The notes under the pieces: model-generated
The model's database searches: none
The model's input: only the letters and a program-made list of their open reading frames with translations
What the model was told of the DNA's origin: nothing
DNA from: Bacteroidota bacterium
GTDB lineage: Bacteria; Bacteroidota; Ignavibacteria; Kryptoniales; JAKASW01
Assembly (NCBI GenBank): GCA_021845665.1
Contig: JAJZVO010000044.1
Span: 1-35,700 of the forward strand
Direction of reading: 5' to 3'
DNA length: 35,700 nucleotides
Program-made: the position numbers and the translations under genes
Shown here: piece after piece, positions 10,431 to 35,412 of the stretch
Layout: each line of letters begins with the position of its first letter
Numbering within the stretch: the stretch's first letter is position 1

Positions 10431-13247
10431 CTATTTCATCTTCGGCTTAATTTCCTTTGGTTTCATCGGATGCACCGCCGGACTTTTAGACTTGCGCATG
10501 TTCATCGCTGCGCCGGGGGACGCCGCCGCCTTCATCTGTTCCTTCAGGATCTGTATCTCTTGTGTGATACCCTGCTGATTCGGGTAAAGTGCCTGCAGCT
10601 TTTCCAGGAGATCGATCGATTTTTGAGTCTCATTTTCCTCCTGGTAGAGGCTGAGAAGAATCCTGTATGGGTTGTAGTAGCTTTCCACGTCTTCAGGATT
10701 CTCTTTTATCGCTTCGAGCGCTCCTCGTTCCACGACTGCCGCATATTTATGGAACTGCGGCATCGCACCCAATGAGTAATACATTCTTGCAACGTCGCTT
10801 AGAACCTTGTAGTTCATCGGGATGCACTCGATCGGAATCCGCGCCTCCATCGAGTCGAGCGTCGCTATGGCCTCTGTCGAATCACCATGCATCGCATAAT
10901 AGCTGGCCAGGCGCATGAACCCGTACCTGTAGTTCAGAGTCAGCATCCTGACCTGATCGTCATAGTAGATGTTCGGGTCGTTGAGATTTGTGAAGAGGAA
11001 TCCGTAATGAGCATGCTTGTACGCTCTTTTTGGAGTATGCAGGTAGCATTCCTTCATGATGTTCGTGTTCAGGGCGTACTCTTCCTCGGGATTCATACTC
11101 TCTTTCGGAGTGAGTTGCATTGCCAGGCCCTGCATGTTGAGATATGGACCAAGGCCGATGAAGTTCTGTGGCGCTACGGTGACCGCGAAGTAAATCGGTC
11201 TCTTCCAGTCGTTGGTCTGTACGATGTTTTCTACCAGAAGATCCTGAGCTCTTACTGCCTTGATATTACCGTAACTCAACGTGGGCTTCATGGTAAACTG
11301 AATATATCCCTTGTTCGTGACGCTCGTGTCCGTCACTCCGAATTCCTTGAACACGGATTTCGGGACAGGGATTTTGACATTCTGGGTCTTCCATTCAACC
11401 GGCTGGATATTCTGCAATTCCTGGTTGCTCATGCTGATCGGGACTTCCTCAGCTCCGTGCGGCCTCTCGTTTTTCAGCTGCAGATCGTACCAGTTCGTGT
11501 TGGCGAGACTGAGGTTTACTATTCTGACGTCGGTCCTTATCCCGAGCGCTTCCTGCAAATACCAGAGAGGGAATGTGTCGTTGTCGCCGTTGGTGAATAG
11601 TATGGCGTTCGGTTCGCAAGATTGCAGGATATTGTATGAATAGTCGAACGGCGCGTAATTGCCGTTGCGGTTATGCGTGTATAGATTCTGCGCGAACATA
11701 TTGACCGGGGCCGCGAAGAAAAGCACTGCCGCGGTGCCTGCCGCGGCGAGCATCCTAGTTTTCTTTTGCTTCACCTTCTCCAGGATCAGGTCGATTATGC
11801 CGGACACACCTATTCCTGCCCACAGTGCGAAGACAAAATAAGACCCTACGTAAAAGTAAAACCTCTCTCTGGGCTGCGGATCCTGCATGTTGAAATACAC
11901 CACGAGCGCGAACCCGAACGTAATGAACATGACAAGGAACGTAAGTCCGAATTTCCAATCCTTTTTGAATTGATACCACAGGCCAAATAATCCCAGGAGA
12001 AATGGTATCGCGAAGTACCGCGTCGGAAAGCCCGCACGACCGTCATACCATCCTTTCGGCGCATTGATAAATGCGACCGGTGCATTTTGTATGTCTCCCG
12101 CTCGTCCTATGAAATTCCACCCGATATAACGGAGATACATCTGGTCGAGCTGGTAGCCTAAGAAGTAATCAAAATCAGATGAGTACTTCTGGTAACCTGC
12201 CTGGTATTCTGCCTGATTACTCCAGCGCCGTGGCCAGAATATTGGCTGTGATCCGTATTGATCGCGATTCAGGTACCCGACAAGACGCTTCAGGTCGCTG
12301 GGATTGTCTTCGTTTATCGGTGGGTGCGCGTTTGAACGGATGTATACGAGCGCATATGTCGAGTAGCCGAGAACTATGAAGAGACCTGCAAGAAGTGATG
12401 TGTTGAGGATCCATCTCTTCGCTTTCTGTGCCTTGTACGCACCGTAAATTGCGGCAATCACGAGACCCGGCGGTATCAACTGTATGAGAAAGCTGTGCTT
12501 GATGTCAAATGGCCCGAAGTTCACGTCACCGTGCAATATTGCCGCGATCCATTTCACGATACCCGGATAAATGACAAAGAATCCGAGCATCGCTATGATC
12601 CCGAATTTTATGAACGTCTTTAACTCAAATTCGTAATACCTGAAATAAATCAGGAGGGCCACCGTGAAAAACACGATTATGCTCAATACGTGGACGCCTA
12701 TCGAAAGCCCCATCGCATATGCTGCGAGTAACAAATATCTCTGGCTCCCCGGTTCGTCGGCCTTTTCGAACCATACCATCCCGAGCCAAAGTATGAGTGC
12801 TATGAAAAAGAGCGCCGTCGCAAATAGACTTGATTCTACCGCGTTGAACCAAATGGAGTCGGATACCGAAAGTATCAAAGCGCCTATGGCAGCGGAGCCG
12901 AAAACGACTATCGCACCTTCGCCGTCATTAGGAAATCCCTTCCATCTGGCGATCACTTTCACGCCTATCAGGTAGAGAAGCATCATGGCCAACGCGCTCG
13001 TGAGCGATGAGACCAGGTTGTAACGCAATGCCGGATCATGGACATACGGCGTCATCATTGCAAGCCTTCCCAGGAGTGTCCATAGTGGAGCGCCCGGCGG
13101 GTGAGGCACCTCCATTGCAGGAGCTGTAGCGGCGTACTCACCGCAATCCCAGAAGGCGACTGAGGATTGTGCGGTCATGCCGTACATGAAGAGGGTAACA
13201 ACAAAGATCGCGAGCGCTATGTAGCGGTGGAGGTGCTTGAAATTCAT
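10431..13247 (-). CDS. DUF2723 (TMEM260-type) membrane protein, probable protein O-mannosyltransferase
   Basis: 938 residues from ATG 13247. The frame reaches 13382, but the first 45 residues would overlap the predicted promoter and are not membrane-like. The N-terminal half has about ten hydrophobic helices and the family signature: YGMTAQSSVAFWDCGEY, with the acidic pair just after the first helix, and EVPHPPGAPLW. A globular periplasmic part follows. The last 200 residues are helical and TPR-like (YYAMHGDSTEAIATLDSME; LSLYQEENETQKSIDLLEKL), and the C-terminus is Lys/Pro-rich. The eukaryotic relative TMEM260 is a protein O-mannosyltransferase of GT-C fold (family knowledge), so glycosylation of exported proteins is the inferred role. 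It lies next to two secreted propeller proteins, possible substrates. Confidence 0.85.
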   Translation of the reverse strand: MNFKHLHRYIALAIFVVTLFMYGMTAQSSVAFWDCGEYAATAPAMEVPHPPGAPLWTLLGRLAMMTPYVHDPALRYNLVSSLTSALAMMLLYLIGVKVIARWKGFPNDGEGAIVVFGSAAIGALILSVSDSIWFNAVESSLFATALFFIALILWLGMVWFEKADEPGSQRYLLLAAYAMGLSIGVHVLSIIVFFTVALLIYFRYYEFELKTFIKFGIIAMLGFFVIYPGIVKWIAAILHGDVNFGPFDIKHSFLIQLIPPGLVIAAIYGAYKAQKAKRWILNTSLLAGLFIVLGYSTYALVYIRSNAHPPINEDNPSDLKRLVGYLNRDQYGSQPIFWPRRWSNQAEYQAGYQKYSSDFDYFLGYQLDQMYLRYIGWNFIGRAGDIQNAPVAFINAPKGWYDGRAGFPTRYFAIPFLLGLFGLWYQFKKDWKFGLTFLVMFITFGFALVVYFNMQDPQPRERFYFYVGSYFVFALWAGIGVSGIIDLILEKVKQKKTRMLAAAGTAAVLFFAAPVNMFAQNLYTHNRNGNYAPFDYSYNILQSCEPNAILFTNGDNDTFPLWYLQEALGIRTDVRIVNLSLANTNWYDLQLKNERPHGAEEVPISMSNQELQNIQPVEWKTQNVKIPVPKSVFKEFGVTDTSVTNKGYIQFTMKPTLSYGNIKAVRAQDLLVENIVQTNDWKRPIYFAVTVAPQNFIGLGPYLNMQGLAMQLTPKESMNPEEEYALNTNIMKECYLHTPKRAYKHAHYGFLFTNLNDPNIYYDDQVRMLTLNYRYGFMRLASYYAMHGDSTEAIATLDSMEARIPIECIPMNYKVLSDVARMYYSLGAMPQFHKYAAVVERGALEAIKENPEDVESYYNPYRILLSLYQEENETQKSIDLLEKLQALYPNQQGITQEIQILKEQMKAAASPGAAMNMRKSKSPAVHPMKPKEIKPKMK

Positions 13248-28482: not shown

Positions 28483-30240
28483 ATGAAGTACATCAAACTC
28501 GCCGCAGTCGTGATCCTCGCGATAATCCTGGCCTCTTGTTCACCGCAGAAACTTAAGGTGGACCTCGTCCTGACGAACGGAGAAATCCAGACAATGGATC
28601 CTGTCTTCCCGACGGCGGAAGCCGTCGCTGTCAACGGCGGCAAAATCGTAGGCGTCGGTACAGACGATGGCGTCACATCTCACTTCTCCGGAACGAAGAC
28701 GCTGAACCTCCATGGTGCGTATGTCCTTCCGGGATTAATTGACGGCCACGCGCATATGGTGGATCTCGGCATGAGTCTTCAAACTATAAATCTGTCCGGT
28801 GCGCGCTCTCCACAGCAAGTAGCTACATTGGTCGAAGAGGCGACTGCAAGGACGAGGCTCGGCGGTTGGATCCGAGGGAGTGGCTGGAACCCGACGCAAT
28901 GGCACGAGAGTCTCACAGACCTCGGAGGTCTCCTCGACAAGGCCGCCCCCGATAATTACGTCTTCCTTGTGAGTTCAAACGGTGAAGCCGTCTGGGTGAA
29001 TGAGAAAGTCCTTCGATTAGTCGGGATCGACCGTAACACGAAAGCCCCCCCGGGTGGGGTGATCGTCAGGGATAGCAAGGGTAACCCGACCGGTGTACTG
29101 GCTGGCTCCGCGATATCGCTCGTCACATCCATGCTCCCTCGTCCTTCCGAAGACGATATCCAAGAAGCGATCGAGCTGGCTTCGGATACGTGCGCACGTT
29201 ACGGAATTACGGAAGTGCAGGATGCCGGAATCGGTCGGCACACGCTAGATGCTTACAAACTTCTTGCCGACCGGGGTAAGCTGAAAATTAGAATCTACGC
29301 TATGTACGACGGCGACGACACCACCCTTCCGGCCATTCTGAAGTCGGGCCCTATCGTCAATTACAAAGACTATTTTACAATGCGTTCCATAAGGGTCGAC
29401 ATGGACGGGCCGCTGGCATCGCGCCAGGCGGCGCTCGTCAGGGAATATTCGGATGCGCCGGATCAGTTCGGGGCTACGCTGATGAGCGAAGGGAGCCTGG
29501 CGAATCTCACGATCGCATCGTTGTCGTCGGGTTTCCAGGTCTGCACTGAAGCTCATGGCGACAGGGCTAACGACGTCGTTCTGGATGCTTATGGGAAAGC
29601 GCTGAAGGTTGCGAACGTTGACGATCCTCGACTGAGAATAGAGTGCGCGGACGTTCTCCTGAGCAGAGATTTCTCCAGGTTCAAGGAACTCGGCATCATC
29701 CCGTCTATGCAGCCGTCCGTGTGTACATCTGATATGTATTGGGTGGAGTCGAGGTTGGGTCCTGAGAGAACCCGGAACGCTTTCGCGTGGCAGTCGCTGC
29801 TCAGCAGGGGGAACATCATTGTCTCCGGTTCCGACTTTCCGAACGAAAGCCCTGATCCGAGGATCGGGATATACTCTGCCGTCACGCGGCGCGACTTGAA
29901 CGGATTGCCGCAATCCTTTGCCAATGCTGAAAGATATTTTCAACTCAGCCCCAACGCGGCCGTCGACAGCTCGGACTTCGACGGAGGCTTTTTCCCGGGC
30001 CAGCGGATGTCCCTCGCCGATGCGCTGAAGTCCTTCACCGTCTGGCCGGCCTATGCCGCTTTCCAGGAGTCTGAGAAGGGAAGCATATCGGTGGGTAAGT
30101 ATGCGGACTTTACAATTCTGAAATCAAACCTCCACCGCATGCCGCATGACGAGATCCTTCATGACACGATTATGGCAACGATTGTCGGAGGCAGGTTCGT
30201 CTACGAGAGTCCGCTCGCACGCGCGTGGAGTTCACCTTGA
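28483..30240 (+). CDS. YtcJ-type (Amidohydro_3) lipoprotein with substituted active-site ligands
   Basis: 585 residues, GAGG before the ATG. A lipoprotein signal ends in LASC with Cys19. The metal-dependent hydrolase barrel follows: LPGLIDGHAHMVDLG keeps the H-x-H pair (89, 91) and SGSDFPNESPDPR keeps the late Asp (451). Other family positions are altered. The usual D-G-H-A reads N-G-E-A (Glu168). The carboxylated Lys before D-G-x-L-x-S-R reads Arg304. The usual T-H-A-I-G-D reads T-E-A-H-G-D (Glu356, His358). R-I-E-H-A reads R-I-E-C-A (Cys388). The rest (DGPLASRQAALV, GDRANDVVLDAYGKAL, SMQPSVCTSDMYW, GKYADFTIL) follows the family closely, so this is a full-length homologue with altered chemistry or none. 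Substrate unknown; predicted membrane-anchored outside the cytoplasm. Confidence 0.88.
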   Translation: MKYIKLAAVVILAIILASCSPQKLKVDLVLTNGEIQTMDPVFPTAEAVAVNGGKIVGVGTDDGVTSHFSGTKTLNLHGAYVLPGLIDGHAHMVDLGMSLQTINLSGARSPQQVATLVEEATARTRLGGWIRGSGWNPTQWHESLTDLGGLLDKAAPDNYVFLVSSNGEAVWVNEKVLRLVGIDRNTKAPPGGVIVRDSKGNPTGVLAGSAISLVTSMLPRPSEDDIQEAIELASDTCARYGITEVQDAGIGRHTLDAYKLLADRGKLKIRIYAMYDGDDTTLPAILKSGPIVNYKDYFTMRSIRVDMDGPLASRQAALVREYSDAPDQFGATLMSEGSLANLTIASLSSGFQVCTEAHGDRANDVVLDAYGKALKVANVDDPRLRIECADVLLSRDFSRFKELGIIPSMQPSVCTSDMYWVESRLGPERTRNAFAWQSLLSRGNIIVSGSDFPNESPDPRIGIYSAVTRRDLNGLPQSFANAERYFQLSPNAAVDSSDFDGGFFPGQRMSLADALKSFTVWPAYAAFQESEKGSISVGKYADFTILKSNLHRMPHDEILHDTIMATIVGGRFVYESPLARAWSSP

Positions 30241-32139: not shown

Positions 32140-33435
32140 ATGAAGAAGAAGAGGATTGTTGCAGCGGTTGTCGTCTTGATTATGATTGCAGGCGTCGTAA
32201 CGTTCTTTGCACGCAGGGGAAATACGGAAAACGTTCAGTGGCTCACTCTTCCGGTAAGCACGGGCAACGTCGATGTCGTCGTTACCGCAACGGGAACTCT
32301 GGCACCTGATACGACCGTCCAGGTCGGCACTCAGGTCTCGGGAACAATTGCGAGACTTTATGCCGACTGGAATTCTCGTGTCAGAAAGGGGCAGATCGTC
32401 GCTCAGTTGGACACGACTTTCCTCTGGGCAAGTGTCGAACAAGAGCAAGCCAACCTGCAGAAGGCCATAGTCGCAGAGCAACAGGCTAAGAGAACCTTCG
32501 AAAGGGTCAAGCAGCTGTACGACCGCAACCTGGATTCGCAGTCGGATTATGATACGGCACTTTCCGACTATCAGACTGCCCAGGCGAGTGTGCTTCAGGC
32601 GCAAACTTCACTGGACCAGGCCAGGATCAATCTGAGCTATGCTACAATTCGGTCGCCCATCAGCGGCGTCGTGATATCAAGAAATGTGGACATAGGGCAA
32701 ACAGTCGCTTCAAGTTTCAACACGCCGACCCTCTTCACGATAGCTAATAACTTGTCCGATATGCAGGTGCAGGCCTCGGTCGACGAAGGTGACATAGGGA
32801 ACGTGAAGGTGGGCGAACACGTGAGTTTCACAGTCGACGCTTATCCGAATGATGTGTTCAAAGGCAAGGTGACTCAGATTCGCCTGCAACCGTCCACGGT
32901 TCAAAACGTCGTCGAGTATACGGTCATTATCGATGTTCCCAATCCCGACATGAAGCTTCTTCCCGGAATGACTGCTAATCTTACCATAGATGTTGCACAG
33001 GCAAATGATGTGCTTAAGGTCCCAACTACAGCGCTGAGGTTTATGCCTCCGCAGCGGTACCTCGCTGAGCTCAGAAGAGCGATACCCGACTCCGTCAGGG
33101 AGAAGTTCCGCAAAAAGTTTGAACGTTTTCATGGGCAAAATGGAGGCGGCGGAGCGGTTGGCTTCGGCAGCCAGGGATCTAGCCAGTTTGGTCAGGCCGG
33201 CGGCGGTCAAAACTACCAGGACAGGGACCTCACACCCGGAAGCTATTTTATGGTCTGGGTGCTCGATGGAAAAAACATAAGACCCGTCAGGGTCCGGATT
33301 GGGCTTTCCGATGGGACAAGTACACAGGTGAGCGGCGGCCTACGGCCGGGTGAGTCTGTCGTCGTAGGCATGCTTTCAAACGGCCCGTCAGGACAAGGTC
33401 AGTCAAATCCATTCGCGATGCAGCGGAGGTTCTAA
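32140..33435 (+). CDS. MacA-like periplasmic adaptor (membrane fusion protein)
   Basis: 431 residues with an N-terminal signal-anchor (VAAVVVLIMIAGVVTFF). The lipoyl/hairpin region has VQVGTQVSGTIARLYADWNS, a long alpha-hairpin (about 105-155) and the second lipoyl half YATIRSPISGVVISRNVDIG. Then come the beta-barrel (VQASVDEGDIGNVKVGEHV) and the membrane-proximal domain (LKVPTTALRF). Residues about 330-363 form a Gly/Gln/Ser-rich insertion before the last domain (SYFMVWVLDG...VRIGLSDGT). It links the inner-membrane ABC transporter to the TolC-like pore. Confidence 0.93.
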   Translation: MKKKRIVAAVVVLIMIAGVVTFFARRGNTENVQWLTLPVSTGNVDVVVTATGTLAPDTTVQVGTQVSGTIARLYADWNSRVRKGQIVAQLDTTFLWASVEQEQANLQKAIVAEQQAKRTFERVKQLYDRNLDSQSDYDTALSDYQTAQASVLQAQTSLDQARINLSYATIRSPISGVVISRNVDIGQTVASSFNTPTLFTIANNLSDMQVQASVDEGDIGNVKVGEHVSFTVDAYPNDVFKGKVTQIRLQPSTVQNVVEYTVIIDVPNPDMKLLPGMTANLTIDVAQANDVLKVPTTALRFMPPQRYLAELRRAIPDSVREKFRKKFERFHGQNGGGGAVGFGSQGSSQFGQAGGGQNYQDRDLTPGSYFMVWVLDGKNIRPVRVRIGLSDGTSTQVSGGLRPGESVVVGMLSNGPSGQGQSNPFAMQRRF

Positions 33436-33439
33436 GCAC

Positions 33440-34192
33440 GTGGCACAGTCGATCATCTCGGTCAAGCACCTCGTGAAGATATATAAGATGGGCGACATCG
33501 AGGTCCACGCGCTAAGAGGGATTAACCTCGACATAGAGCAGGGTGAGTTTGCCGCCATCATGGGCGCGAGCGGATCCGGCAAATCGACGCTCATGAACAT
33601 CCTCGGCTGCTTGGATATACCGACCAGCGGAGAGTACCTGCTCGACGGAGTATCGGTCGCCAAGCTCGACAGGGACGAGTTGGCCAGGCTCAGGAATAAG
33701 AAACTCGGTTTCGTTTTCCAGGCTTTCAATCTTCTCCCGAGAACCACCGCGCTTGAGAACGTTGAATTACCATTACTCTATTCCAACAATCATTCATCGG
33801 TGCAGAGACGCGAGAAAGCAATGGACGCTCTGGCGGCTGTCGGCCTCGCCGAACGTGCCGGACATTACTCCAATCAGCTTTCCGGCGGTCAGCAGCAGCG
33901 CGTCGCAATAGCCCGATCTCTTGTCAATGATCCGGTCGTCATTCTGGCCGACGAGCCTACCGGGAATCTCGACACCCGGACAAGTGTCGAGGTCATGGAG
34001 ATATTCCAGAAGCTGAACGAAAAAGGAATAACTGTAGTACTCGTGACGCATGAAACCGATATCGCGCAGTTTGCCACCCGGAACATAGTGTTCAGAGACG
34101 GAAAAATTAGCAAGATGGTACATGTGGAAAATCGGAAAATTGCCGCTCAAGAACTTCCCAAAATACCCGTGACTATCGATGAGGCTGAGTGA
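33440..34192 (+). CDS. MacB/LolD-type ABC transporter ATPase
   Basis: 250 residues, GTG start four bases after the adaptor stop. Walker [17 protein letters not shown]-loop [11 protein letters not shown], signature [14 protein letters not shown], Walker [18 protein letters not shown] and switch His in VLVTHETD are all intact. The C-terminal 30 residues extend past the core. The stop overlaps the permease start (TGATG), so the subunits are made together. Confidence 0.95.
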
Positions 34193-35412
34193 TGAATGTG
34201 CTTAACGTGCTGCGCGTATCGTACCGCTCGCTCGCAAGAAACAAACTCCGGTCTTTTCTGACTATGCTCGGGATAATAATCGGCGTCGCTGCAGTCATAG
34301 CAATGCTTGCAATCGGACAGGGAGCCAGCGATGCGGTTAAGCAGCAGATCGCCGGATTGGGAACCAATGTCGTGATAGTCTTTCCGTTCGCTTCATCCGA
34401 GGGCCAGGTCCGCTTCCAGGCGGGCGAAACATCGCGGCTCACCGAGAGCGACGCAATAGCAATTGGCGAACAATGTCCAGCCGTTAAGTATGTAACGCCG
34501 GTGGTCAGGGTCGTTACGCAGATAATAGCCGGTACCCAGAATTGGAGAACATCTGTGATGGGAGTTTATCCGGATTTCGAACAGATCAGAAACTGGCCGG
34601 TTCAAAGCGGCAGCTATTTCACACAGACTGACGAACGCACGGCGGCGAAAGTGTGTCTCCTTGGCCAAACGGTTGCCGACAATCTCTTCGGGCCAGGAGC
34701 AATTCCTCTCGGGGCGACCGTGCAAATAAGGAACCTTCCTTTCAAAGTGATCGGAGTCCTCGCGTCAAAGGGACAGAGCGCAATGGGGCAGGACAACGAC
34801 GACATTGTAATTGCTCCCTTTTCCACCGTTCAGCAGAAACTCGCCGGGACGATTTACGCCAATATCCTGTTTGCCTCCGCCATCTCCGCCAGGGCAGTAG
34901 AAACGTCCGTCCAGGAAATCAGTCAGTTCCTTCGCATCAAACACAATCTTAGATCCTGGCAGCCAAACGACTTCACCGTCAGAACCCAAACTGAAATCGC
35001 CAGCACCGCCGATGCGACGACGAAAACGATGACTCTCTTACTTGCCAGCGTAGCGGCCATCTCTCTGATCGTCGGGGGAATTGGGATCATGAACATTATG
35101 CTCGTCTCTGTCACAGAACGCACGCGGGAGATCGGTATAAGGATGGCGGTTGGAGCCAGAGGCGGTGATGTATTGACCCAGTTCCTGATCGAGGCCGTTT
35201 CTCTGAGTCTTGCCGGCGGAATAATTGGCGTGGTACTCGGCGTTTTTACCTCTAAATTCGTCTCCGACATCCAGCGCTGGCCGGTCGTCATTTCTCCGCA
35301 GTCGATCGGCCTGGCCTTCGCCTTTGCAGCGATCATCGGCATCTTCTTCGGCTGGTACCCGGCACGAAAGGCAGCAAACCTTAATCCCATCGAGGCCCTC
35401 AGGTACGAGTAA
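34192..35412 (+). CDS. MacB-type ABC transporter permease
   Basis: 406 residues from ATG 34192, overlapping the ATPase stop by one base (an adjacent GTG 34189 is also possible). N-terminal helix with LRSFLTMLGIIIGVAAVIAM, then the large periplasmic MacB core domain (about 50-275), then three C-terminal FtsX helices (SLIVGGIGIMNIMLVSVTER with the conserved TERTREIGIRMAVGA; LSLAGGIIGVVLGVF; IIGIFFGWYPARKAANLNPI). Length suits a half-transporter with a separate ATPase. With the TolC- and MacA-like genes it forms a mechanotransmission exporter; the substrate (drug, peptide, siderophore or glycolipid) cannot be told. Confidence 0.95.
   Translation: MNVLNVLRVSYRSLARNKLRSFLTMLGIIIGVAAVIAMLAIGQGASDAVKQQIAGLGTNVVIVFPFASSEGQVRFQAGETSRLTESDAIAIGEQCPAVKYVTPVVRVVTQIIAGTQNWRTSVMGVYPDFEQIRNWPVQSGSYFTQTDERTAAKVCLLGQTVADNLFGPGAIPLGATVQIRNLPFKVIGVLASKGQSAMGQDNDDIVIAPFSTVQQKLAGTIYANILFASAISARAVETSVQEISQFLRIKHNLRSWQPNDFTVRTQTEIASTADATTKTMTLLLASVAAISLIVGGIGIMNIMLVSVTERTREIGIRMAVGARGGDVLTQFLIEAVSLSLAGGIIGVVLGVFTSKFVSDIQRWPVVISPQSIGLAFAFAAIIGIFFGWYPARKAANLNPIEALRYE

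Follow-up and report, generated by a model that had tools for sequence, protein, structure and literature searches.

A YtcJ-type amidohydrolase lipoprotein with replaced metal ligands, maintained under purifying selection within one bacterial genus

YtcJ-type amidohydrolases (PF07969, COG1574, cd01300) include the uncharacterised Pyrococcus hydrolases of structures 3ICJ and 3IGH, as well as BwBSH1, a characterised PF07969 enzyme that acts as a metal-dependent bile salt hydrolase (preprint, PMC13081902). In BwBSH1, the metal-binding residues have been assigned as follows: (i) the His pair of the H-x-H motif and a late Asp bind the alpha-metal; (ii) two further His bind the beta-metal; and (iii) a carboxylated Lys bridges the metals. 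Substitution by Ala of any of these six residues, or of the His adjacent to the amide bond, abolishes activity (PMC13081902). Among these substitutions, K373A, H441A, H474A and H196A (PMC13081902) affect residues that match positions lost in the protein clade described here (the matching was made via motif order and the 3ICJ alignment). In addition, Asn443, located two residues after the beta-5 His, is predicted to contact the substrate (PMC13081902).

Amidohydrolase pseudoenzymes are already known, and two groups of them are comparable to the protein described here: (i) the CRMP/DPYSL proteins (PF01979), which have kept the amidohydrolase fold but lost metal ligands, including the carboxylated Lys (CRMP-4, for instance, has two of the six metal residues; PMC4051505); and (ii) pseudo-dihydroorotase (pDHO), a non-catalytic amidohydrolase homologue still in use, also in bacteria, which holds aspartate transcarbamoylase in Pseudomonas aeruginosa and lacks the zinc ligands in fungi (PMC7053772). 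In contrast to our protein, CRMPs belong to another subfamily, occur in the cytosol of animal cells, have a known neuronal role and are not lipoproteins; pDHO, in turn, is cytosolic, belongs to a different subfamily and has a known partner. Within PF07969, a limited literature search of incomplete coverage, from which absence is not proven, found no amidohydrolase pseudoenzyme.

The gene and its active site

The gene studied here lies in a window of 35,700 nucleotides (the whole stretch of DNA that was analysed) and consists of one open frame of 585 codons (Table 1), in agreement with the original prediction in both frame and coordinates. An overlapping minus-strand ORF (29245-29943, 232 aa) is taken as spurious. 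The product starts, like bacterial lipoproteins, with an N-terminal signal that carries a lipobox (L16-A17-S18-C19, called by eye from the sequence), and it matches PF07969 with E = 2e-86 and 291.8 bits (cut-off, 29.7) along positions 2-472 of the 472 of the profile. The structure prediction that had been proposed as a check was run and returned an intact fold, i.e. a distorted TIM-barrel plus a small beta domain as in 3ICJ and 3IGH, which are the nearest solved structures by sequence and by fold (Z 47.2 and 48.1, respectively). AlphaFold2 modelled the window protein with a pLDDT of 93.3 and its canonical orthologue from genome G008 with one of 94.4, and the two models have nearly identical secondary structure.

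Table 1. Features of the amidohydrolase gene, with positions in the window and the basis of each assignment.
Feature	Position	Strand	Basis
YtcJ-type (PF07969) lipoprotein gene with altered active site; 585 aa	28483..30240	+	Orthologue in 12/12 other genomes of the genus
Signal peptide and lipobox LASC, with predicted lipidation at C19	28483..28539	+	Sequence; Cys at 19 in 13/13 genus orthologues
PF07969 Amidohydro_3 domain, residues 73-574	28699..30204	+	Profile match; AlphaFold2 pLDDT 93.3; Z 47-48 to 3ICJ/3IGH
H89-x-H91, retained alpha-metal ligands of beta-1	28747..28755	+	Sequence alignment
S164 in place of R, N166 in place of D, E168 in place of the substrate-carbonyl-contacting His	28972..28986	+	Alignment; BwBSH1 H196A inactive (PMC13081902)
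G208 in place of a D common to all canonical rows compared; Gly in 10/10 clade members	29104..29106	+	Alignment
R304 at the carboxylated-Lys position; D306 in place of Y/F	29392..29400	+	Alignment
E356 in place of the beta-5 metal His; H358 in place of Ile	29548..29556	+	Alignment
C388 in place of the beta-6 metal His; D390 in place of Gln	29644..29652	+	Alignment
V413 in place of the His of the SMQPTH motif	29719..29721	+	Alignment
D451, kept in window protein; Gly in three other clade members	29833..29835	+	Alignment

The window protein shares with YtcJ-type amidohydrolases the domain, the fold, the H-x-H of beta-1, the late Asp of beta-8 (D451) and the motif frame around each site. Unlike them, it carries replacements at the bridging Lys (R304), at the metal-binding His of beta-5 and beta-6 (E356 and C388) and at the carbonyl His, and several second-shell motifs are changed. 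Compared with BwBSH1 by motif order and via the 3ICJ alignment, it has neither the Lys that bridges the metals nor either of the beta-metal His, and the carbonyl His is missing as well. All residues named in the original prediction were read correctly (H89, H91, E168, R304, T355-E356-A357-H358-G359-D360, R385-I386-E387-C388-A389 and D451); its four replaced positions stand but the extent of change was understated, as a further six near-invariant positions are also replaced (R164S, D208G, Y/F306D, I358H, Q390D and H413V).

The canonical reference set comprises 96 relatives from the same class, including the same-place orthologues of three species of the genus. In each of the 96 rows, position 168 is His, 304 is Lys, 356 and 388 are His, and 451 is Asp; the solved homologues 3ICJ and 3IGH carry the canonical residues in the alignment too. 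Hence, the family pattern of the original prediction holds, and the question then raised of whether these residues vary in active members is answered by ligands that are invariant throughout the canonical rows: the altered site is not family variation. Altogether, most of the altered clade departs from the canonical rows in 15 columns whose invariance in the latter is at least 95%. Changed columns make up 9 of the 24 invariant columns near catalytic residues versus 6 of the 52 elsewhere (Fisher p = 0.013), so the replacement of residues is beyond chance. When 391 genomes of the class were searched with an EAHGDR DNA pattern, amidohydrolase-family matches appeared only within the genus; twelve matching loci outside the genus were inspected by eye, and none reads as an amidohydrolase.

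Distribution, selection and origin

One orthologue is present in each of the 13 genomes of the genus, with a canonical site in three of them (G004, G006 and G008) and an altered site in the remaining ten. Positions 168, 304, 356 and 388 are replaced in all ten altered species, and H89 and H91 are retained in every clade member whose sequence covers that part. The replacing residues differ in their constancy: (i) position 356 is acidic in 10/10 members (Glu or Asp); (ii) position 304 is Arg or Met; (iii) position 168 is Glu, Gln or Gly; (iv) position 388 is Cys in three members, Gly in six and Ala in one; and (v) position 413 is Val, Ala, Asp, Gln or Arg. Position 451 is Gly in G010, G001 and G009 and Asp in the other seven. 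At the same time, eight positions (164, 208, 304, 306, 349, 356, 358 and 423) have become newly fixed in at least nine of the ten members, which suggests that the pocket is still under selection.

The original prediction also maintained that the substitutions are not the product of random decay, and this is borne out by the confident predicted fold and by the following data. The frame is full-length in nine altered species and split across two contigs in the tenth, and no broken frame was found. According to a purpose-written pairwise codon likelihood, omega (dN/dS) for close pairs of the altered gene ranges from 0.054 to 0.135 and is below 1 with 2 delta lnL of 182-514; comparable pairs of neighbouring genes give 0.010-0.085. 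Constraint on the altered gene is therefore a little weaker than on its neighbours, but the gene is far from evolving neutrally. Furthermore, members of the altered clade are 60-90% identical to the window protein, and identical substitutions recur across separate assemblies. Catalytic residues have been lost while purifying selection maintains the protein, as is characteristic of a pseudoenzyme.

The gene lies in the order MqnA-like, outer-membrane-like, glutamate dehydrogenase, YbjQ, amidohydrolase, PF04008, TolC and MacAB-like. This order is the same in five altered genomes (G000, G003, G012, G010 and G001) and in the canonical G004 and G008, and partial in G006. In the gene tree, the altered rows form a single clade with 100/100 support, nested among canonical rows; when the active-site columns are removed, the node that implies a single origin is unsupported. 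A tree of neighbouring genes groups the three canonical species together (support 97). The simplest account would be one change within the genus, after the split from the canonical species. On this account, the dinuclear centre disappeared a single time, in the common ancestor of the ten altered species among the thirteen sampled, and the gene kept its chromosomal place.

A paralogue swap was rejected: altered and canonical copies share their gene order, and the other paralogue is canonical at the metal ligands. Across these genomes the latter is about 30-33% identical; the copy in G000 (L048 984-2672, on contig C53) is about 31% identical and has no obvious signal peptide. Because the genome carries this canonical PF07969 paralogue, the cell probably retains an ordinary activity of the family.

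A second altered lineage was found in another family of the same class. Its two proteins (L064 and L121, from genomes G082 and G105) are PF07969-like, lipoprotein-like (..LYSCS), 95% identical to each other and about 36% identical to the window protein. The H-x-H, the bridging Lys, the two later His and the His at the carbonyl are all gone from them, but D451 is kept, and they carry D306 and E390. They are changed in 14 of the 15 columns altered in the window clade versus 14 of 61 other columns (Fisher p = 7e-7), being also more diverged generally, and their omega of 0.027 corresponds to strong purifying selection. D306 is common to both lineages, whereas the other replacement residues differ and the H-x-H is lost only in the second one. 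Judging from the different residues chosen and from the distance, the loss is apparently independent of that in the window clade; L064 has a long branch and is placed uncertainly in the tree.

Possible roles of the altered pocket

The reading that we favour, with modest confidence, is that of a pseudo-hydrolase, maintained by selection, in which the dinuclear metal centre was dismantled and the pocket became specialised anew, for binding a ligand. The following steps are proposed: (i) a YtcJ-type lipoprotein ancestor would have lost the dinuclear metal centre, while the gene stayed in its place; (ii) the altered protein would no longer perform the metal-dependent hydrolysis of the family; (iii) it would instead be exported, anchored to a membrane of the envelope and used for binding or capture; and (iv) a new charged set (R304, D306, E356 and H358, with S164) would line the old substrate pocket in place of the metals. 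Position 358 probably faces the pocket, since BwBSH1 Asn443, its counterpart, is the residue predicted to touch the substrate. In favour of a pseudo-hydrolase are the loss of ligands (including D451 in three members), the single clade of altered rows, the canonical orthologues in the same gene order, the omega values, the newly fixed positions, the paralogue and the second lineage. Against it, H89 and H91 are kept, as is D451 in 7/10 members, which would suit a remaining alpha-metal; moreover, the new charged residues might have a catalytic role, and either H358 or E356 could be a metal ligand.

Both states of one gene occur at one chromosomal place within a genus, so that the path by which a metal-dependent hydrolase turned into a non-canonical protein that is still maintained can be traced residue by residue, with the second lineage as a control. 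Moreover, a PF07969 match alone is not proof of a working amidohydrolase, and automatic annotation would label all these proteins as enzymes.

A rebuilt metalloenzyme with a new activity is unlikely, in our estimate, and it could take two forms: (i) a single metal on H89, H91, E356 and D451, in the layout of mononuclear amidohydrolases (e.g. adenosine deaminase), with Glu replacing the beta-5 His; or (ii) a displaced site on D306, H358 and D/E390. The first form would be suited by the two His present in all members, by the acidic residue constantly found at position 356 and by the fact that the kept ligands are exactly the alpha-metal set of BwBSH1 and the lost ones are the beta-metal and bridge residues (PMC13081902). 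On the other hand, no complete ligand set is common to all members (451, 358, 390 and 388 vary), the carbonyl His and H413 are gone as well, and the H-x-H is also lost in the second lineage. The variation at 388 and 451 argues against a new metal site that would be conserved throughout the clade and rely on C388 or D451, and the absence of D451 from three members implies that the role of the protein does not need it. Of the pseudoenzyme or rebuilt site envisaged in the original prediction, the loss of the standard dinuclear centre stands, and the Glu/His/Cys metal site, as it was worded, is weakened by a clade in which only three of ten members have Cys388 and three have Gly at 451. A rebuilt site of another kind, on the mostly conserved E356, H358, D306 and D/E390, is conceivable.

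The second form draws on a pattern repeated on three strands, two residues downstream of the beta-4, beta-5 and beta-6 ligands: Y306 has become Asp in all members, I358 has become His in 9/10 (Arg in G001) and Q390 has become Asp or Glu in 9/10 (Gly in G011). Owing to this pattern, a displaced site is conceivable. When checked as nearby substitute ligands, D306, H358 and D390 do not restore the standard set. That the metal centre has moved, with these positions forming a displaced metal or acid-base site of new activity, seems to us distinctly unlikely; the second lineage, which also has D306 and E390, may have approached such a site by related steps.

More doubtful still is a scaffold or regulatory partner, i.e. 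a catalysis-free barrel that acts via its surface by, for instance, holding another envelope protein. This role has precedents in the superfamily, namely pDHO (PMC7053772) and CRMPs (PMC4051505), and would agree with neighbouring genes that are stable across the genus. Nevertheless, a pure scaffold should put no constraint on the pocket, in which several positions are instead newly fixed, and among the neighbourhoods compared across the genus there is no partner gene whose linkage separates altered from canonical species.

Finally, that a dispensable enzyme is in the early stages of decay, or that the assembly has produced an artefact, can hardly be entertained: many catalytic positions are lost and the named relatives are metagenome-assembled genomes, but the frames are full-length in 9/10 species (the tenth being split over two contigs), omega is well below 1, divergence within the clade is long and the same substitutions come from separate assemblies.

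Neighbouring genes

Acid adaptation as the cause of metal loss was rejected: neither for the amidohydrolase protein nor for its exported neighbours do predicted pI values set the altered species apart from the canonical ones, and no link between the sample names and a habitat emerged from the paper checked. In at least one canonical species (G008) and one altered species (G010), the amidohydrolase and PF04008 genes are separated by an aldo/keto-reductase-like gene, at L045 10142-11098 and L037 about 10757-11710, and is absent from the window. Further downstream, the MFP, MacB1 and MacB2 genes (window 32140-35412 versus L035) show dS values of 3-7 between G000 and G012, against 0.45-0.62 for the upstream genes; between G000 and G003, dS for the same three genes is 1.35-2.0. 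This region of G012 is probably a recombined stretch.
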